A stretch of DNA of 12,746 bases from Caulobacteraceae bacterium (GTDB lineage Bacteria > Pseudomonadota > Alphaproteobacteria > Caulobacterales > Caulobacteraceae), in contig JACDGF010000019.1 of the NCBI GenBank assembly GCA_013815405.1, positions 1 to 12,746 of the forward strand. The letters are read 5' to 3'. The notes under the pieces are model-generated. The model did not search any database and was not told where the DNA came from. It was given only the letters and a program-made list of their open reading frames with translations. The translations under genes were made by a program, and so were the position numbers. Positions 934 through 12,619 of the stretch are shown here, one piece after another. The first letter of the stretch is position 1. Every line of letters begins with the position of its first letter.

Positions 934-1041
934 GGGTCAATGAGGCCTCGGCGTTTCGGCCGAGGAATTTGAGTGCTCCAAGAAGGCGGACTCTACCGCC
1001 TAAAGCTTCAATCAGGCTGGACCGCACAAGATCCAGAGGCG
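934..1041 (-). CRISPR. Degenerate mini-CRISPR (two pseudo-repeats, one 35-nt pseudo-spacer), candidate Cas-regulating RNA
   Basis: Seen directly: the plus strand at 1005-1016 reads GCTTCAATCAGG, 11 of 12 identical to the start of the array repeat at 12465 (GCTTCAATGAGG). It is followed by a CTGGA/TCCAG stem (1017-1021/1032-1036). A second copy at 937-945 (TCAATGAGG) is followed by a perfect 7-bp stem CCTCGGC/GCCGAGG (946-952/959-965), which mimics the array-repeat hairpin. The 35 nt between them (970-1004) match the array spacer length of 35-39. Read on the minus strand the order is pseudo-repeat 1 (ending in an intact ATTGAAGC handle), spacer, pseudo-repeat 2. This is the layout of CreA/CreR RNAs, crRNA-like RNAs that guide Cascade to repress a promoter. 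Its first 15 spacer bases resemble the cas3 promoter region (see 1149-1186). I could not identify a convincing minus-strand promoter. Confidence 0.75.
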
Positions 1042-1043
1042 AT

Positions 1044-1065
1044 CCCGCAGTTGGTCACCTGCGGG
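1044..1065. repeat. 7-bp inverted repeat (CCCGCAG / CTGCGGG)
   Basis: A perfect 7-bp palindrome with an 8-nt loop lies directly next to the pseudo-repeat at 1005-1041, on the side from which a minus-strand RNA would be transcribed. It could be an operator for a dimeric regulator, a hairpin at the 5' end of the RNA, or coincidence in GC-rich DNA. No T-tract follows it in either direction, so it does not look like an intrinsic terminator. Confidence 0.4.
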
Positions 1066-1148
1066 TTCGACCGAGTTGGGACCCCGGCCGCGGCCGTCGC
1101 CTTCGACGCTACCGCTCTATCCGATTCGCGCCCATCACCCTATTGTTT

Positions 1149-1186
1149 TTCTTTAGTCTGTAGAGTTGGGAGCCTTGACATGCTGC
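1149..1186 (+). promoter_or_regulatory. Putative self-target of the mini-CRISPR (TTC PAM plus partial protospacer) over the cas3 promoter
   Basis: Seen directly: plus-strand TTC at 1149-1151 is followed by TTTAGTCTGTAGAGT (1152-1166). The pseudo-spacer read on the minus strand from 1004 begins TTTAGGCGGTAGAGT. Thirteen of 15 positions agree; the mismatches are at positions 6 and 8. Position 6 is one that type I crRNAs do not read because the base is flipped out. TTN-type PAMs are reported for I-U/I-G systems (recalled, not checked). A 35-nt footprint would end at 1186 and cover the TTGACA at 1175-1180, so bound Cascade would block RNA polymerase. A match of this length with few downstream matches would fit binding without cleavage, as in CreA/CreR. 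The function is inference. Confidence 0.6.
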
Positions 1187-1223: not shown

Positions 1224-4095
1224 TTGGAACTCAGCGCAGCACAGATCGCCGAATTCCTGGGGGGGCGACCGCTTTACAAGTGGCAGCGGCGACTCCTGGA
1301 AGAATGGTTTTGCGTCGGGTGCACGCCGGACGCGCTCGATCTTCCCACCGGCCTCGGCAAGACCAGCGTCATCTGGCTTTGGCTCGCGGCGCGGGCGATC
1401 GGCGCAAATCTGCCTCGCAGATTGATCTATGTCGTCGATCGTAGGGCGGTCGTGGATCAGGCAACCGCCGTCGCCGACATGATTGCGGAGCGGCTCGGGC
1501 CTTCGGCGGCGGCCGGTCCTGCCACGCAGATTCGGGCGGCCCTTGGCCTCTCCGGGGAGGAGAGCCTCCCCATCTCGACTCTCCGAGGTCAGCACCTCGA
1601 CAACCGCCGCTGGCTTGAAGACCCTGCCTCATCGGCAATCGTGGTGGGCACCGTCGATATGATCGGCTCACGATTGCTGTTCGAGGGCTATGGCGTCAGT
1701 CGGAAAATGCGGCCGGTCCACGCTGGGCTCATTGGCGTGGACTCCCTCATTGTTCTCGATGAAGCCCATCTGGTCCCGCCGTTCGAGGCGCTCGTCCGGC
1801 AGGTGTCGACACTGGGGAGGGGCGATGCGAATCGCGCTCCGCATCCGCTTGCCCGATCGATCCATCTGATGAGTCTTTCGGCTACGGGGCGAGAGACGCC
1901 CGGTGCAAGCGTGTTCCGCCTGATCGAGGATGATCTGGACGATCCACCGGTTCGCGCCAGACTTGAATCCCCCAAGCGTTTACGTGTTCTGCCGGAAGCG
2001 TCGCCCAACGATATTGTGCGAAAGCTGGCCGACGAGGCGTGGACTTTCGGCGAGGGCGGTCGGCGGGTTGTAGTGTTTTGCAACAGCCGAAAGACCGCCC
2101 AAGCGGTTGAAGCCGATATCGCCAACCGAATCTCGAAGGACAAAGCAAGATTTGGCAAGGATGCCCATCTTACCGCCCTCCTGGTGGGCGAGAGGCGTTA
2201 CCGTGAGCGGCTGCGGTTGGCCGGCGATGGAACGCCGAACCACCCAGGTTCCTGGGCTTTCAACCGCTTTCGGCCGGGCGAAAGTTCTGATCCAAGCGGT
2301 CGGCCGGCCTTCCTGGTCGCCACCTCCGCGGGAGAGGTGGGAGTTGATCTCGACGCCGACGACATGGTCTGCGACCTCTTGGCCTGGGAGCGCATGGTCC
2401 AACGCCTAGGCAGGGTGAACCGCCGTCCCATCCCCGGCGAGGCCCGCGTCACCGTGATCCCGGTCATGAAAGAGAAGGAGGCCGAGGACAATATCGAGGA
2501 CACGGACTTGGCGCGATACCGTGCGCCCTTCGACAACTCGTTTTGGCCCGAGGGCGAAGACGGGGCCAAAGATGCCAGCCCCATCGCCCTGGCTCGATTG
2601 AGAGAAATACCCGAGATCAAGGAGGTTCTGGCCGACGCTTCCACTCCCGAACCCTTGCGGCCGCTGCTCACGCGCGCCACGGTGGAGGCCTGGTCGATGA
2701 CCTCGCTTGATACTCATCCCGGCCGCCCGAAGGTGCAGCCCTGGATTCGCGGCTGGGTCGAGACCGAACCCCAGACGACGATGGTCTGGCGCCGGTTGTT
2801 CCCGCTTCCCGGCGGCGAAGAGCCGGTCATGCGCGATTTGAAGGCCTTCTTCGAAGCCGCACCACCTCACGTCAGCGAGAGTCTTCAGGCGCCGACTTGG
2901 CGGGTGGTCGAGGTTTTGCGCAAGCGCGCCGACGCGTGGCGCAAGGCAGGTTTCAAGGTAGGCTCAGTCGTTAAGGATGGGGCGGAGCTCGACGCGGAAG
3001 CGACTGATGTTCCGGACGCTGATGTCCGCGAGGCGCCGGAAGCCGATGCGCGAGCCGAGCCAAAGCCGGCTTTCGCGCCCGTGGTCGTTCTCATTGGCCC
3101 GGATGGCGATGTCGAGGATGTCTACAGCATCGCCCGCTTGGCCGAAGCCAATGCCGACGCCCTGGGAAGAGCTCTCGCGAACGGGACGGTCGTGGTCGAT
3201 GCCCGCATGGGAGGTCTCGACCGCAATGGCCTTCTCGATGTGAAGGCATCCGTCGAGCCCGACACCATCGACATGCAGCAACTCGGCGGATGGGGTCTGG
3301 GTCTCGAGCGATCCACCGGATGGCGCGTGATCTTCGGGGAGCGCCCGATGCGTGAGGGGTCGCGCCATGACGGCTCGTGGAGACTGGACGAATTTCGCTG
3401 GGCGGCGTCGGACGCCGACGACGCCGAGGGCTTGTGGGTGGAGCTATGGCGCGGCCCTGGCCACAACCTCGGCGATCCGGCGGTCAGCGGCAGATCGCGA
3501 AGCCTGGGCGATCACCACGACGACACCGGCGGGCACGCCATGCGGATCGCGGATAGCATCGGTTTGGACTCGCCCTACCGCGAGCTGCTGATAGCGGCGG
3601 CGCGGGCTCATGATCTCGGCAAAGACCGTAAGCTTTGGCAGGACGCGATGGGCGCGGGGCTGGACGGTCGGCCCTGGGCCAAGACCTTGGGTGGCGGGGA
3701 CGGCCGGGCCCTGAATGGTTACCGGCACGAGTTCGGCTCGCTGCGCGACGTGACAAATGGAGAGGGTTCGGGGCTTCTTGCCCTCTTCAAACCTGGGGGC
3801 GAATTTGATGACCCCGGACTGCACGATCTCGCCCTGCACCTCGTCGCCACCCACCATGGTTGGTTGCGACCGGTCATCAAGGCCTACGACCCGCATCTAG
3901 ACGAGCCACCCAGCCGTTCCTTGCCCCGTGCGCGGGAAGCGGCACTCCGGTTCGCGCGATTGCAGGCGACTTGGGGACCTTGGGGGCTGGCTTGGTGGGA
4001 GGCTCTGCTACGCGCCGCCGACTGGGCGGCTTCACGGGGTCTGAACGACGCAGCGACAGCGCCGATACAATTTCCACAGGCGTCGGAAACGCCCC

Positions 4096-4103
<8 letters not shown>
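1224..4103 (+). CDS. cas3: Type I-G/I-U CRISPR-associated helicase-nuclease Cas3 with C-terminal HD domain
   Basis: Cas3 is recruited by target-bound Cascade and unwinds and degrades the invading DNA in the 3'-5' direction. The protein has 959 aa. Superfamily 2 helicase motifs come first: Walker A LPTGLGKTS (40-48), DEAH (179-182), SLSATG (217-222), and the motif V/VI region ending QRLGRVNRR (393-401). An acidic Asp/Glu/Ala/Pro linker (about 582-616) precedes the HD nuclease: H764/H765, the HD pair H796-D797 in AHDLGKDRK, H835 in RHEFG, H877/H878 in THHGW, and D933. Helicase-then-HD order, the reverse of most Cas3 proteins, is typical of I-U/I-G. The start is TTG at 1224, the first start in this frame, with a strong AAGGGGGAGG three bases upstream. 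The 3' end overlaps csb3 by 8 nt. All key residues look intact, so an active enzyme is expected. Confidence 0.95.
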
Positions 4104-6079
<1,976 letters not shown>

Positions 6080-6104: not shown

Positions 6105-8360
6105 ATGAGTGACCGGGCGCTGCTGATCGAGGTGCGCTGGCCCGATGGGCGATTTCACGGCGTACGCGAAGGGCGCGAACGTGGCAGAGGCGCGGAGGCC
6201 GTGGTGCGGGAGTGGCCGCCGTCGCCGTTTCGCCTTTTTCAGGCGCTGGTCGCGGGCGCCTATGGCGGACGTTGGGCGTTCGAGGCCCGCGCCGAAAAGG
6301 ACGCCGCCTTTGCTTGGCTGGAGCGGCTTGATCCACCGGTGATATTGGCTCCGGCGGGCAAGACGCTGCGGCCGGTGACCTACTACGTACCGAACAACGA
6401 CGCGGATGCGGTGGGCGGTGACCCGGGCCGGGTAAACGAAATCCGCTCCGCCAGGACCCTACGCGCCAGCATGTTCGAGTCCGAACGCCCCGCCGCCTAT
6501 CTCTGGACTTTCGACGGCGACGATGCGCCGGCCAGGCGAATGGCCCAGCTAGCCGGACGATTGCATACTCTGGGTCATGGGATAGACGCCGCTTTTGCCC
6601 GGGCGGAAGTGCTAGATGTCCACGAAGGAGAACAGCGGCTATTGGCGCTGGGTGGAACTCCGCGCCGACCCGCGATCCGCCCAGTGTCGGGCGAACGGGG
6701 AACACCGTGCCCGGCGTCTGGTAGTTTCGACAGCCTTCGCCGACGGCATGAAGCCTTCATCGGTCGCTTCACTCGCGCGGGAGCCGGACGCAAGGCCGTC
6801 ATCGCATTTCGCCAACCCTCCAAGGCCCATGCGCGCGCTATCTGCTATGACCAACCATCGGCGCGGCTGCTCTACGAACTGACTCCCCTTCGGGGGCGCG
6901 CGCAATTCCGGCCGTGGCCACTCATCAATGCGACTCTGCTCACGGTCATGGTGCGCGATCAGGCGGCGCGCGCCCTGCGATCAGAATGGCCGAGGGAGGT
7001 GGAGCGATACGTGATCGGCCGCGGCGCTGGGCCGGGCGACGTTACGGCCCGCTTGCGCATCCTGCCCCTGCCTTCGATCGGGACGCGTCACACCAGCCAG
7101 GATATCCGCCGCATGCTCGTCGATGTTCCGCCCGATCACCCCGTTCCCATCGCCGATCTGAAGTGGGCCCTGTCCGGGCGAGAGCTCGCCGATGGGCAGG
7201 GCGAGCCGACCGGCATAGTGCTCTCGCCCGCGTCCGACACCTCGATGCTTGGCCGCTATCGCGCGAACGTTGCTCACGGCGAGGGCCGCGTCTGGCGTAC
7301 GGTCACGCCCGCCGCCCTGCCTGGAAGGCGCGGCCGAGGACGCGGCGGAGACGCTCGTGCGGCGGCGGAGGCGCAGGCGGCTGGCTCCGTCGTTCAGGCG
7401 CTTCGTCACGCTGGGATCACCACGCCTGTCTCGGCGGTGCGGGTGCAGAAGGAGCCGTTCGACCTCAAAGGCGAATGCGCCGACCGTTTCATGCCCGACC
7501 GCTTCAACGTTCACGACCTGCATCACGTTGAAATCACGTTCGGCCGACCCGTGGGTGGGCCGTTGGTGCTGGGCGATGGCCGTTGGCTGGGGCTCGGCGT
7601 CATGCGCCCCGTCTCCGGGGGCGTCGTGCGCGCGCGGGCCGGTACGGATGGTCTGCACGTGCTGTCCTTCAATGCCGGGCCTGCCTTAGGAGCCCGGGAT
7701 GCCGAGGCGATCACGCGCGCGCTGAGGCGGGCGGTGATGGCTCGCGCTCAGTTGGTCGCCGGAACGCGGCTGAAACGCGGCGAGAACCTGCCGGTCTTCT
7801 TCACCGGGCACGTCGAGACCACCGCCCCGGCCCGGCGGACCCAACCAGCGAAAAGCGGCCTGCACGAACATTTGTTTTTCGCGTTCGACCCAAATCGCGA
7901 GACACCGCGACTCCTTGTCATCGCGCCGCATCGCGTCGACAGGAATCGCGAGGTGCTTGACCGCACAAGGCGCCAGCTTAGTTGGCTAGCCGAAGCCGTC
8001 GAAGGCCTGGACGATCTCCGCGCCGGCGCCCTGGGGCGTTTCTCGCTAGCGCTCGTTTCGCCCGAGGGGGCCGACCCCATATTTGGCCGTTCGAAGGCCT
8101 GGGTTTCGCTCACCGCCTACCGCCCTACTCGTCATCCTCGTGGTCAGCAGGACGCCGCCGAAGCCTTGATTGTCGATTTGATTCACGAAGCCTCGCGACG
8201 AAACCTCCCGCGTCCCGAGGTCGACGTGCTGGCCGTGAAAACTGGTCCGCGCGGCGGCATCCAAGCCGACCTCCAGCTACGCTTCGCGGTCGCCGTCAAC
8301 GGACCCCTCCTCCTTGGACAAGACTCGCACTTTGGCGCCGGGTTGTTTGGAAGAAATTAG
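6105..8360 (+). CDS. csb2: Type I-G/I-U Cas5-Cas6 fusion protein Csb2 (GSU0054-like)
   Basis: Csb2 combines a Cas5-like part, which caps the 5' handle of the crRNA, with a Cas6-like endoribonuclease that cuts the repeat hairpin. In this 751-aa protein the Cas5-like N-terminus shows REWPPSPFRLFQALVAG (35-51) and LRPVTYYVPNN (88-98). The Cas6-like C-terminus shows HEHLFFAFD (587-595) and a glycine-rich RNA-binding loop, GPRGGIQADLQLRF then GQDSHFGAGLF (714-748). H587/H589, or the histidine of PTRHPRG, are candidate catalytic residues, but I cannot decide which. An Arg/Gly/Ala-rich linker near residues 403-430 (GRRGRGRGG) joins the halves. The length is greater than I recall for typical GSU0054 members. 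The ATG at 6105 follows GAGGAGAA, 25 nt after csb1. It is the last intact cas gene in the window. Confidence 0.92.
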   Translation: MSDRALLIEVRWPDGRFHGVREGRERGRGAEAVVREWPPSPFRLFQALVAGAYGGRWAFEARAEKDAAFAWLERLDPPVILAPAGKTLRPVTYYVPNNDADAVGGDPGRVNEIRSARTLRASMFESERPAAYLWTFDGDDAPARRMAQLAGRLHTLGHGIDAAFARAEVLDVHEGEQRLLALGGTPRRPAIRPVSGERGTPCPASGSFDSLRRRHEAFIGRFTRAGAGRKAVIAFRQPSKAHARAICYDQPSARLLYELTPLRGRAQFRPWPLINATLLTVMVRDQAARALRSEWPREVERYVIGRGAGPGDVTARLRILPLPSIGTRHTSQDIRRMLVDVPPDHPVPIADLKWALSGRELADGQGEPTGIVLSPASDTSMLGRYRANVAHGEGRVWRTVTPAALPGRRGRGRGGDARAAAEAQAAGSVVQALRHAGITTPVSAVRVQKEPFDLKGECADRFMPDRFNVHDLHHVEITFGRPVGGPLVLGDGRWLGLGVMRPVSGGVVRARAGTDGLHVLSFNAGPALGARDAEAITRALRRAVMARAQLVAGTRLKRGENLPVFFTGHVETTAPARRTQPAKSGLHEHLFFAFDPNRETPRLLVIAPHRVDRNREVLDRTRRQLSWLAEAVEGLDDLRAGALGRFSLALVSPEGADPIFGRSKAWVSLTAYRPTRHPRGQQDAAEALIVDLIHEASRRNLPRPEVDVLAVKTGPRGGIQADLQLRFAVAVNGPLLLGQDSHFGAGLFGRN

Positions 8361-8399: not shown

Positions 8400-8525
8400 T
8401 CAATTCAATCCCAGATCCTTCTTGATCTTGTTCACCAGGCCCGAGCCCAATTCCTTCGCGGCGCCATGCATCGGCGGTTGTGACGTCCGATCGTGCGCCG
8501 GACCGTCAGGTGGCCGGAGCCACCC
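8400..8525 (-). pseudogene. HicA (YcfA-like) toxin C-terminal remnant
   Basis: HicA toxins are small double-stranded-RNA-binding-fold mRNA interferases paired with HicB. On the minus strand a short stretch ending at the stop 8402-8400 reads PMHGAAKELGSGLVNKIKKD then LGLN, closely resembling HicA C-termini (P-H-G-x-KEL-x-x-G-x-x-x-K-I). Just upstream in another frame (about 8525-8508) GGSGHL resembles the catalytic G-S-H segment. The remnant is therefore frameshifted and lacks the N-terminal half and any start. No HicB partner is visible. It lies 40 bp past csb2, in opposite orientation, next to CRISPR-repeat remnants. It may be a relic of a toxin-antitoxin pair, or of a toxin once controlled by a crRNA-like antitoxin (inference). 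Confidence 0.6.
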
Positions 8526-8633
8526 TCCCATCCGGCCCCCGTTTCGGGAGCGAGGGAGGGCGGTGAAAGCTGTATCGCCAAGGCGAAGATATGCCGGCTT
8601 CAATGAGGCCCCGGCTTCTCGAAATAGTGAACG
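8524..8633 (-). CRISPR. CRISPR repeat remnant(s) upstream of the HicA relic
   Basis: Plus-strand 8597-8616 reads GCTTCAATGAGGCCCCGGCT, 20 of 20 identical to the first 20 bases of the array repeat; the remaining 17 positions have diverged. Read on the minus strand the ATTGAAGC handle is intact. After a 36-nt interval (8596-8561) there is a second, much weaker candidate at 8560-8524. It aligns to the repeat at roughly 21 of 33 positions by eye and keeps a CCCG/CGGG stem. The spacing equals one array spacer. The first remnant is clear. The second could be coincidence in GC-rich DNA or part of the decayed HicA coding region. Confidence 0.6.
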
Positions 8634-9114: not shown

Positions 9115-10653
9115 ATGCCCAGCGAGAGATTGTCGATGCGCCACATACGCGAGCTGTTGCGTCTGAAGTTCGAGAACGGCCTGCCGGGCCGGCTGATCGC
9201 CGCGTCGCTGGGGCTCAGCAAGGGCGCGGTGCACGACTACCTGCAGCGGTTCGCGGTCGCCGGGTTGAGCTGGCCCTTGCCGGAGGATCTGAGCGACACA
9301 GCGCTCGAACGGCGTCTGTTTCCTGGGCCGCCAGCCGCGGGATCGGCGGGGCGACCCGAGCCGAACTGGGCCTATGTCGACGCCGAGTTGAGGCGCAAGG
9401 GCGTCACCCGGTCGCTGCTCTGGCAGGAATATCGCGCCGATCAACCCGAGGGTTACGGCTACTCCTGGTTCTGCGAACATTACGACGCCTGGAAGGGGCG
9501 GGTCTCGGCGACGATGCGCCAGCGGCATGGCGCCGGGGAGAAGGTGTTCGTCGATTACGCCGGCGATACGATCGACATCATCGACCCGGCAAGCGGGGTG
9601 GCGCGGCCGATGAAGCTGTTCGTCTCCGCCATGGGCGCATCGTCCTACATCTACGCCGAGGCCCGGCCGAGCGAGGGACTGGCCGACTGGATCGGCTGCC
9701 ACGTGTCGCTGTTCGCCTTCCTGGGCGGGGTTCCCGGCATGGTCGTCTGCGACAACCTCAAGTCTGGCGTGACCAAGCCCGATCGCTATGAGCCGGCGAT
9801 CAACCGCACCTATCAGGAGATGGCGCGTCACTACGGAACCGGCATTGTTCCGGCGCGGCCTTACAAGCCGCGCGACAAGGCGAAGGTGGAACAGTCGGTG
9901 TTGCTGGCTCAGCGATGGGTGCTGGCCCGCCTGCGTAACCGGCGCTTCTTCAGCGTCGCGACACTCAACTCCGCCATCGCCGAGCTGGTGAGGGATCTCA
10001 ACGCCCGGGTGATGCGCGCCTATGGCGCCAGCCGCGCCGAGCTGTTCGCCACCGTGGACGCTCCGGCGCTCAAGGCTCTGCCGGCCGAGCCCTACGCCTT
10101 CGCCACCTGGAAGCGCTGCCGCGTCGCGCCCGACTACCATGTCGAGGTCGAGGGCTGCTTCTACTCGGTTCCCTATCGGCTGATCCGCGAGGCCATCGAC
10201 GTGCGCGTCGCCGATCGCACGATCGAGGCCTTCCACAAGGGTGAGCGGGTGGCCAGTCACGCCAAGTCGCCGGGACGGCGGGGACACGTCACCGTTCCCG
10301 AGCACATGCCGAGCGCCCATCGCCGCCATGCCGCCTGGACGCCGGCGCGAATGATGGCGGCGGCCGACAGGATCGGTCCCGCCGCCGCGGCGCTGTTCTC
10401 CGAGATCATGACCGACCGGCCGCATCCCGAGCAGGGCTTCCGCACCTGTCTGGGCATCCTCGCGCTGGAGAAGACCTACGGTCAGGCCCGGATCGAAGCG
10501 GCCTGCCAGCGCGCCGGCGTGATCCGAGCCCGCTCGGTGAGTTCCCTTCGCTCGATCCTCAAGACCGGCCTCGACCGCGCCTTCCTCGAACCGGAGCCGG
10601 AGCCCGAACCCCTGCGCCACGGCAACATCCGTGGCCGGACCTACTTCCACTGA
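9115..10653 (+). CDS. istA: IS21-family transposase IstA
   Basis: IstA is the DDE-type recombinase that binds the terminal repeats and carries out strand transfer with the help of IstB. The product has 512 aa, the usual size. A helix-turn-helix lies near residues 25-45 (GRLIAASLGLSKGAVHDYL). The RNase H-like catalytic core shows D147 (VFVDYAGD), D213 (VVCDNLKSG) and E259 (KPRDKAKVEQ), so the DDE triad is complete. A C-terminal beta-barrel region (YHVEVEGCFYSVPYRL) follows. The ATG at 9115 has GAGGAGG about 5 nt upstream. istB begins 17 nt downstream. No frameshift or internal stop is seen. The long opposite-strand frame over the same DNA is a GC-rich shadow. Confidence 0.96.
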   Translation: MPSERLSMRHIRELLRLKFENGLPGRLIAASLGLSKGAVHDYLQRFAVAGLSWPLPEDLSDTALERRLFPGPPAAGSAGRPEPNWAYVDAELRRKGVTRSLLWQEYRADQPEGYGYSWFCEHYDAWKGRVSATMRQRHGAGEKVFVDYAGDTIDIIDPASGVARPMKLFVSAMGASSYIYAEARPSEGLADWIGCHVSLFAFLGGVPGMVVCDNLKSGVTKPDRYEPAINRTYQEMARHYGTGIVPARPYKPRDKAKVEQSVLLAQRWVLARLRNRRFFSVATLNSAIAELVRDLNARVMRAYGASRAELFATVDAPALKALPAEPYAFATWKRCRVAPDYHVEVEGCFYSVPYRLIREAIDVRVADRTIEAFHKGERVASHAKSPGRRGHVTVPEHMPSAHRRHAAWTPARMMAAADRIGPAAAALFSEIMTDRPHPEQGFRTCLGILALEKTYGQARIEAACQRAGVIRARSVSSLRSILKTGLDRAFLEPEPEPEPLRHGNIRGRTYFH

Positions 10654-10670
10654 CCCCCGAAGGAGACATC

Positions 10671-11429
10671 ATGCTTGCCCATCCCACCCAAGAACGCCTG
10701 ATCGCCCTGGGCCTGGCCGGCATGGCCAGGGCCTTCGAGGAACAACGCGGCTCGCCCGACCTCCTCGCCCTCTCCTTCGAAGAGCGCGTCGGCATCATGG
10801 CCGACCGCGAAGCCGCCGAGCGCGACACCCGGCGCACCGCGACCCGGCTCAAGTTCGCGGCTCTGCGCCAGAACGCCTGCGTCGAGGATATCGATCTGCG
10901 AACGCCGCGTGGCCTTGATCGAGCCCTTCTCGCCAGGCTTGTCGCCGGCGACTGGATCGACCGACACGACAACCTGGCGATCGTCGGCGCCACCGGGGTT
11001 GGCAAGAGCTGGATCGCCTGCGCCCTGGGCCACAAGGCCTGCCGCGACGGCCGGACCGTGCTCTATCAGCGCGTGCCCCGGCTCTTCGAAGCCTTGGCGC
11101 TCGCCCGCGGCGACGGGCGCCATGCACGATTCCTGAAGACCCTCGCCCGGATCGATCTCCTCATCCTCGACGACTGGGGCCTGCAGGTCCTCACCCAGAC
11201 GCAGCGGATCGATCTGCTGGAGATCCTCGAGGACCGCGCCGGCCGGGGATCCACCCTCGTCACCAGCCAGGTCCCCATCGACCAATGGTGCGACGTCATC
11301 GGCGACCCCACGCTCGCCGACGCCATCCTCGACCGCTTCGTCCACAACGCACACCGCATCAACCTGACCGGCGAGAGCATGCGGCGCGCCAACGCCAAGC
11401 GAAGCCTTGACGCCGGCCAAAACGCCTGA
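10671..11429 (+). CDS. istB: IS21-family helper ATPase IstB
   Basis: IstB is a AAA+ ATPase of the DnaC-like clade that selects target DNA and stimulates IstA. The 252-aa product has Walker A GATGVGKS (106-113), Walker B LLILDDWG (163-170) and a sensor-like STLVTSQVP segment, with the typical C-terminus FVHNAHRINLTGESMRR. The ATG at 10671 follows AAGGAGA and lies 17 nt after istA, so the two are cotranscribed. Length and motifs are complete. Confidence 0.96.
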   Translation: MLAHPTQERLIALGLAGMARAFEEQRGSPDLLALSFEERVGIMADREAAERDTRRTATRLKFAALRQNACVEDIDLRTPRGLDRALLARLVAGDWIDRHDNLAIVGATGVGKSWIACALGHKACRDGRTVLYQRVPRLFEALALARGDGRHARFLKTLARIDLLILDDWGLQVLTQTQRIDLLEILEDRAGRGSTLVTSQVPIDQWCDVIGDPTLADAILDRFVHNAHRINLTGESMRRANAKRSLDAGQNA

Positions 11430-11461
11430 CCCTGTAAACCTGTCGGTCAGTCTCCAGGACC

Positions 11462-11530
11462 GCCCGCCATCACGTGGAATCAGCGCCCACCATCACGTGA
11501 AACCGGCGCCCGCGATCAGCGGAATGCGCA
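11462..11530. repeat. Right-end multiple terminal repeats of the IS21 element (three copies, 23 bp)
   Basis: Three tandem 23-bp units start at 11462, 11485 and 11508, each beginning GCCC and inverted relative to the left-end units. The outermost unit ends AATGCGCA at 11530 and pairs with the outermost left unit at 8941. Confidence 0.85.
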
Positions 11531-11537
11531 CGTCGCG

Positions 11538-11741
11538 GTTCGGACGGCGGATGGCCCTCGAGAGGAGGTCATGCTGGATCGCCGATCCGTGTCTGACGAC
11601 CTGACCATCGAAGTTGGTCATCCGATCACGCGGCGAGAAGATCGAAGCCTTGTCGAGTTGCCGCGGGAAACGGCGCGGGGCTGCTGGAGGGTGTGGGTCC
11701 CCAACGACGCGCTGGTCGGCCAGGAAGAACCGACGGCGTGA
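11538..11741 (+). pseudogene. 3' fragment of the small gene interrupted by the IS21 element
   Basis: The frame continues the 5' fragment (8878-8940) exactly after the second target-duplication copy and encodes VRTADGPREEVMLDRRSVSD and onward to GQEEPTA, stopping at TGA 11739-11741. The restored protein would have 88 aa and be acidic and soluble, with no membrane segment and no recognised domain. Its stop overlaps the GTG start of the dCTP deaminase-like gene in a GTGA quartet. The two were therefore probably one translationally coupled unit before the insertion. The 3' fragment has an in-frame ATG (MLDRRSVSDD) behind GAGAGGAGGTC, so a truncated product could still be made. The function is unknown. 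Confidence 0.7.
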
Positions 11742-12310
11742 TCCTGACCGATCGCGAGATCAAGATTTCGATCCAGGAAGGGTTGATCGAACTCGATCCT
11801 CCGCCCGCGCCGGACGCATACAGTTCAACGAGCGTCGATCTGAAACTCGACCCCTCCATCAGTGAATTTGTTTCGCCCTCGGCCGGCCTGCGCTTCGCCA
11901 TCGATCCGTCCGCCAAGGGTTACAGTTTCAAGTCCGTCATTGAACAGATCACTCGCAAGGTCACGATCTCGGACCAGACCGGATACGAACTGGCGCCGAA
12001 TTCGCTTATTCTGGCGTGGACGAACGAACGGGTGAATCTTCGCGCCAGTGCGAGGGTGGCCGCGCGGGTGGAAGGCAAGAGTTCCCTGGCTCGAATCGGC
12101 TTGGCCATTCACGTGACCGCCCCGACGATCCATGCCGGCTTCGAAGGGCAGATCCAGCTCGAGGTCGTGAACCACGGCCCTCTGCCGATTGTTCTTCGAC
12201 CGGGCATGAGGGTCTGCCAGCTGATTTTCGAACTGACTCTTGGTGTTCCAGAGCGCGGCTACGGTGGCCAGTTCGCCGCGCAGACTTCCGCCGAAAGGTT
12301 TCCGGGCTGA
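11738..12310 (+). CDS. dCTP deaminase/dUTPase superfamily protein (Dcd-like)
   Basis: Dcd-type enzymes deaminate dCTP to dUTP; some members also hydrolyse dUTP, and some relatives act in phage defence by draining dCTP. Starting at the GTG of the GTGA overlap, the product has 190 aa and begins MILTDREIKISIQEGLIEL. Family motifs are the VEGKSSLARIG loop (111-121), the core HVTAPTIHAGFEGQIQLE (125-142) with the expected catalytic glutamate at E142, and the C-terminal GYGGQFAAQTSA lid segment. Similar trimeric-barrel folds are shared with dUTPases, so deaminase versus dUTPase activity cannot be fixed from sequence alone. The gene may have lost its normal promoter because the IS element lies upstream, although IS read-through is possible. 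Its place between CRISPR parts hints at defence, but housekeeping nucleotide metabolism is equally possible. Confidence 0.85.
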   Translation: MILTDREIKISIQEGLIELDPPPAPDAYSSTSVDLKLDPSISEFVSPSAGLRFAIDPSAKGYSFKSVIEQITRKVTISDQTGYELAPNSLILAWTNERVNLRASARVAARVEGKSSLARIGLAIHVTAPTIHAGFEGQIQLEVVNHGPLPIVLRPGMRVCQLIFELTLGVPERGYGGQFAAQTSAERFPG

Positions 12311-12388: not shown

Positions 12389-12619
12389 TTTTTAATGAGG
12401 CCCCGGCTCTGAGAGCCGGGGAAAGGCTGACGACGTGTGTTTCGGGGCGAAGCTGCAAGACCGCGCTTCAATGAGGCCCCGGCTCTGAGAGCCGGGGAAA
12501 GAGGGTCGAGTTCCTCTCCGCCACCATGCGGTCCCTGATGCTTCAATGAGGCCCCGGCTCTGAGAGCCGGGGAAAGCCCTCCTCCACGTTCAGCCGCGGG
12601 ACGGCGTAGGGGCTTCAAT
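12389..12619 (-). CRISPR. Short CRISPR array, three 37-bp repeats plus a truncated fourth, transcribed on the minus strand
   Basis: Repeats lie at 12389-12425, 12465-12501, 12540-12576 and 12612-12619 (only GCTTCAAT left). On the plus strand each begins GCTTCAATGAGG, then forms a 9-bp stem CCCCGGCTC/GAGCCGGGG around TGA, and ends AAAG. Spacers are 39, 38 and 35 nt. The direction is inferred from the complement, which ends ATTGAAGC, the usual 8-nt 5' handle of type I crRNAs. The terminal repeat at 12389 agrees, because it is eroded exactly at its handle end (GCTTCA changed to TTTTTA), as expected at the leader-distal end. The leader should lie to the right, where an insertion sequence now interrupts the fourth repeat. 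This array presumably serves the I-G effector upstream. Confidence 0.95.

Follow-up and report, generated by a model that had tools for sequence, protein, structure and literature searches.

The type I-G locus

The contig under study (GenBank accession number JACDGF010000019.1, 12,746 nt, here referred to as the window) is one of 513 contigs in the 2.72 Mb assembly of a Caulobacteraceae bacterium (GCA_013815405.1), which was searched as a whole. It was found to carry cas genes of type I-G, described as the least well understood of the type I subtypes (PMC9638904), and the end of a CRISPR array on the opposite strand:

1224..4103, plus strand: cas3, the first gene of the operon, with a TTG start codon
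4096..4998, plus strand: csb3 (cas8g)
5000..6079, plus strand: csb1 (cas7g)
6105..8360, plus strand: csb2, a cas5-cas6 fusion, likely the processing enzyme (role from PMC9638904)
12389..12576, minus strand: CRISPR array end with three repeats, the repeat at 12389 having a decayed handle

All of the cas genes in the window are full-length, and cas3, cas8g (csb3), csb1 and csb2, together with a cas4-cas1 fusion and cas2 found on another contig of the assembly (C401), make up the type I-G gene set. The array repeat, CTTTCCCCGGCTCTCAGAGCCGGGGCCTCATTGAAGC (37 nt, minus strand), occurs in the window as two exact copies and the one with the decayed handle, while C401 carries 32 copies, adjoined by the cas4-cas1 fusion and cas2; the array on C401 may be the remainder of the window array. 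Between csb2 and the array end, 9115-12310 is occupied by an IS21-type pair (istA/istB-like) and a dCTP deaminase-like gene. By eye, the array breaks off past the handle at 12612-12619, and short direct repeats resembling the end of a transposon follow up to 12746.

A mini-CRISPR upstream of cas3

On the minus strand at 934-1036, a single spacer lies between two degenerate copies of the array repeat:

1005..1036, minus strand: first pseudo-repeat (psiR1), with a 7-pair hairpin at 1017-1036, CCTG at 1013-1016 and an intact handle, ATTGAAGC, at 1005-1012
971..1004, minus strand: spacer-like guide of 34 nt, with the seed at 990-1004
934..970, minus strand: second pseudo-repeat (psiR2), with a 7-pair hairpin at 946-965, CCTC at 942-945 and a decayed handle, ATTGACCC, at 934-941

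This is the arrangement that the initial annotation had described, except that its spacer of 35 nt is 34 nt long. The handle has no mismatch in psiR1 and two in psiR2. In both pseudo-repeats a hairpin of seven pairs is preserved and stops 4 nt ahead of the handle position, this being the only spacing permitted by the script used for the psiR2 hairpin. Handle, hairpin and 4-nt spacing fit the cut site of Csb2 from T. sulfidiphilus, which cleaves 4 nt after the hairpin and leaves an 8-nt handle (PMC9638904).

Plain identity to the array repeat proved a poor test of a pseudo-repeat, as psiR2 (22/37 ungapped) ranks ninth in the window and psiR1 is absent from the 20 best ungapped matches; it was set aside for the handle, the hairpin and the target. 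The case for the pseudo-repeats is built on these three features and on related loci, plain identity being weak. No clear promoter for the unit was found in a scan of 880-1260.

Two kinds of RNA with a comparable anatomy are known. CreR (Liu et al. 2023, Cell Host Microbe) is presented in reviews as a cas-regulating RNA (PMC12737573, PMC12948488, PMC13131331), and the degenerate repeats found here match the local array repeat type, as expected of CreR. CreTA is a CRISPR-regulated toxin-antitoxin system, described from the type I-B system of H. hispanica and others (PMC8501985, PMC9458426) and from Acinetobacter type I-F (PMC10097628). In haloarchaeal creA, the antitoxin RNA gene, the psiR1 handle is kept and that of psiR2 has decayed (PMC9458426); the two degenerate repeats of the window show the same condition.

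The target of the guide

The guide matches a site between the unit and cas3:

1149..1151, plus strand: PAM-like TTC (TTN is the type I-G PAM; PMC9638904)
1152..1186, plus strand: target, of which bases 1-15 (1152-1166) pair with the guide except at 6 and 8
1175..1180, plus strand: TTGACA, a possible -35 element inside the target, without a good -10 partner

Thirteen of the first 15 guide bases match at 1152-1166, directly behind TTC; this match, in which only bases 6 and 8 fail to pair, and the position of TTGACA within the 35-nt target had both been noted in the initial annotation and were confirmed. Apart from the spacer itself, no other site in the window has a seed match of at least 12/15, and when the region towards cas3 was shuffled 3000 times with its dinucleotides preserved, the observed guide-target score was never reached. 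When the whole assembly was searched with base 6 free and up to two mismatches, three matches were obtained, namely the spacer, the target (one mismatch) and one other site (two mismatches). The reversed-pattern control gave 15, so that genome-wide rarity alone proves little and it is the position that matters.

The target starts 72 nt ahead of the cas3 start codon. The guide is partly complementary, with a PAM, to the region ahead of its own cas operon, as is characteristic of CreR. The promoter scan of 880-1260 found no promoter here, and the best -10 partner of TTGACA scores 2/6.

From the target end to the cas3 start there are 37 nt with no separate ORF, and no toxin gene, as would be seen in CreTA, lies directly behind the target in the window. 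A complete CreTA whose toxin has been overlooked, e.g. a very small RNA at 1186-1224 or one overlapping the cas3 start, is very improbable. Such a toxin could be short, since the known CreT ORFs have four to six codons (PMC8501985), and related loci have candidates (see below), but the 37 nt leave little room and the sole listed ORF of at least 30 codons between target and cas3 extends into cas3.

On the minus strand after csb2, at 8597-8633, a partial repeat with an intact handle was seen beside a 36-nt spacer-like stretch (8561-8596) and a possible second hairpin, the whole spanning 8524-8633. It was rejected as a second unit, being targetless: the best match in the window is 12/15 without TTN, and none was found in the assembly at up to three mismatches.

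Occurrence and covariation in other type I-G loci

Type I-G loci were gathered by Csb3 and Csb1 searches, and 21 loci, checked to be distinct, were scanned, of which 18 have at least 1 kb upstream of cas3. A unit was called where, no more than 1.2 kb ahead of cas3, a handle-like octamer is followed by a guide matching a TTN-flanked site at most 300 nt away. Units were present in eight of the 18 loci, i.e. the window, L009 (Hyphomicrobiales), L011 and L012 (both Acidobacteria), L029, L031, L038 and L060, so that the device is shared by several bacteria of only distant kinship. None was found near cas3 in L010, L028, L033, L034, L035, L045, L047, L050, L061 and L062; two of these, L034 and L035, are divergent, with csb2 preceding cas3.

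The guides differ among the eight loci and each matches its own locus. TTN and matched bases 1-5, both of which were criteria of the final 21-locus scan, occur in 8/8, while base 6 is mismatched in all but L012 (7/8). Before any PAM was demanded, the same targets had already ranked best for their guides in 7/7 loci when the region between unit and cas3 was searched, and the L060 target had likewise ranked best over its whole locus; in both rankings every sixth base was penalised more lightly. When all bases were penalised equally, on both strands of the whole locus, the target came first in six of seven loci and third in L031 (L060 not included). For seven loci, 0 to 7 of 3000 shuffles per locus reached the observed score.

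Guides scored 10.0-15.5 on their own region and at most 7.5 on those of other loci, save that the guide of L012 scored 10.5 on L011 and that of L038 scored 12.0 on L009, both of them related pairs. Handle-like octamers were accompanied by a target in 8 of 13 cases within 1.2 kb upstream of cas3, compared with 2 of 286 elsewhere; the two outside matches lie inside an unmasked array (L045) and at a solo repeat (L061), the latter of which looks real as well. A looser scan, in which the handle could have two mismatches, added rows without TTN in L028, L033 and L009, the last being a hairpin that matches itself; these rows were excluded. Parts of the unit are weak in some relatives: the psiR1 hairpin has four pairs in L011 and L031, and the hairpin and handle scan found no convincing psiR2 in L029 and L060.

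Seed and target covary over the eight loci, which is the comparison that the initial annotation had proposed as a test. A predicted crRNA-like unit, aimed by seed-only pairing just ahead of cas3, is well supported, since guide and target covary in this way. The anatomy, the PAM, the seed match, the covariation and the free sixth base can all be read from the DNA itself. Taken alone, the comparison is also evidence that the type I-G effector may leave the sixth guide base unread, and that about 15 bases may be enough to aim it at promoters. A chance match beside a decayed array fragment, to which the low plain identity of the pseudo-repeats and the targetless partial repeat at 8597-8633 might point, is hardly credible in view of the shuffles (0/3000) and of seven further loci that repeat both the arrangement and the pattern of pairing.

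Surroundings of the targets in relatives

TTGAC occurs from -21 to +44 nt of the target start in seven of the eight loci, with offsets of +33 in L009, +34 in L031 and L038, and +23 in the window. Promoter-like sites, defined by a -35 of at least 5/6 and a total of at least 9/12, were found at 14 of 121,321 plus-strand positions in the eight loci, and one is located at the target in six of them (L009, L011, L012, L029, L031 and L038). A stricter promoter search recovered the site of L009 and not that of L038.

In the six relatives whose target faces cas3, 338-571 nt containing hairpins and small ORFs separate the target from the cas3 match, whereas the window is without that insert (72 nt from target start to cas3). 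Such a gap with small ORFs suggests that the regulated gene in these six relatives may not be cas3. Their layout of target, hairpins and small ORFs resembles the toxin-antitoxin pairs of CreTA, and a toxin gene directly behind the targeted promoter is possibly present there.

The ORFs themselves are diverse. L009 has, between the targeted promoter-like site and cas3, a 60-aa cysteine-rich ORF (4684-4866) with a strong ribosome site, seven homologues and no Pfam family. L038 has a 66-aa ORF between target and cas3, while L011 and L012 have ORFs of 60 and 105-113 aa with N-termini that are similar by eye; at E 0.001, none of 32 candidates was a homologue of the small ORF of L012. In L060 the target lies next to the psiR1 of that locus, on the minus strand, and is followed by an ORF ahead of cas3 that gave the only Pfam match among the small ORFs (DUF3892).

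In L029 a four-codon ORF, ATG CGA CCA CCA TAG (3014-3028), preceded by GGAGG, sits between two strong hairpins (2943-3061) behind the targeted promoter-like site. CCA is used 1.7 times per 1000 codons in the cas genes of this locus, against 56.1 for CCG. Since two rare codons in succession are a described feature of the mini-ORFs of CreT toxins (PMC8501985), the CCA pair makes this ORF a good lead as a candidate CreT.

These loci bring up the reading of the window unit as a relic of a CreA antitoxin, in which the ancestor had a promoter, a small toxin and cas3, as the relatives seem to have, a deletion then removed both toxin and -10 element, and little function is left to the unit. The distances of 338-571 nt, with hairpins and small ORFs, against 72 nt in the window, and a TTGACA without a -10 would agree with it. 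It is nonetheless unlikely, as a relic would be expected to lose the handle, the hairpins, the PAM and the 13/15 seed bases that are still intact, and the toxin of the relatives is itself a candidate only. Between a working brake and a recent relic, these intact features favour function.

Proposed mechanism

The preferred reading, to which we give a probability of about two in three, is that the window unit is a CreR-like autorepressor of cas, a guide RNA restraining its own type I-G system. We infer the following course, from transcription through cutting, loading and repression to relief. The unit at 934-1036 would encode a crRNA-like RNA on the minus strand, which Csb2 would cut so that a 34-nt guide retains an 8-nt handle. 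This RNA would be loaded by the type I-G effector (Csb1, Csb2 and Csb3), which would then bind 1152-1186 via TTC and about 15 paired bases. As the remaining guide hardly pairs, the effector would hold the site and leave it uncut, damping the transcription that enters cas3 and the closely spaced csb3, csb1 and csb2. The feedback would relax once array crRNAs or an anti-CRISPR occupy the effector, following the logic of CreR.

Several findings count against the autorepressor: the window has no recognisable -10 and no clear promoter for the unit, 10/18 loci are without a unit near cas3, the six relatives with a target facing cas3 have it 338-571 nt from the cas3 match with small ORFs in the gap, the target of L060 is on the other strand and that of L031 comes third with equal penalties, and parts of the pseudo-repeats are weak in L011, L031, L029 and L060.

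The initial annotation had proposed a CreR-like control of cas3; the seed-only aim just before cas3 holds over the eight loci, while plain CreR had to be modified because the relatives are nearer to CreTA. Possibly the window is a derived form that lacks the toxin, its unit being, in evolutionary terms, perhaps a CreA that lost it. A tentative extension is that a type I-G family of effector-guided RNAs upstream of cas3 guards swappable toxins, and that the RNA of the window, its toxin lost, became a brake on the effector operon, a natural step from CreTA to CreR.

Comparison with known systems

CreR has been reported to act in types I-B, I-E and V-A (PMC13131331), or, more broadly, in type I and V-A (PMC12737573). 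Like CreR, the mini-CRISPR of the window adjoins the cas operon and has limited guide complementarity before the first cas gene; unlike it, the window unit is of type I-G, is known from its sequence and has no recognisable promoter. It shares with CreTA a partial guide match to a nearby promoter-like site and, in relatives, small ORFs behind the target, and differs in that, in the window, nothing the size of a toxin gene separates target and cas3, the type I-G toxins being candidates only.

The auto-repression of type II-A Cas9 uses a long guide RNA. There too the effector restrains its own operon through RNA and anti-CRISPRs relieve the restraint (PMC13131331), as is proposed here, but the effector is of class 2 and no mini-CRISPR of degenerate repeats is involved.

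In the literature searched no paper names CreR together with type I-G, or CreTA together with type I-U, and CreTA and type I-G occur together once, type I-G there only in a reference list; the original CreR report, outside this scope, may list I-G loci. Within the literature searched, type I-G is a new setting for CreR and CreTA, in agreement with the initial annotation, which knew of no I-G/I-U case. If the autorepressor reading is true, effector-guided self-regulation extends to type I-G, and the relatives offer candidates for toxin-antitoxin pairs of type I-G, along with a path from CreTA to CreR that can be tested.

Other observations

Viral contigs, searched with Csb1, yielded no relative. 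In L045 (2176-3172), a WYL-domain gene is divergent from cas3, with no mini-CRISPR near cas3, and is perhaps another mode of regulation; the I-G type of this locus is carried by two Cereibacter plasmids. The solo repeat of L061, at 14822 with cas3 set to the plus strand, has an exact handle and by eye lies just upstream of a cas4-cas1-like gene. The guide of this repeat has a match 79 nt upstream on the opposite strand, at a site flanked by TTA, and of the first 16 bases only 6 and 11 are mismatched; the repeat may regulate the adaptation genes.
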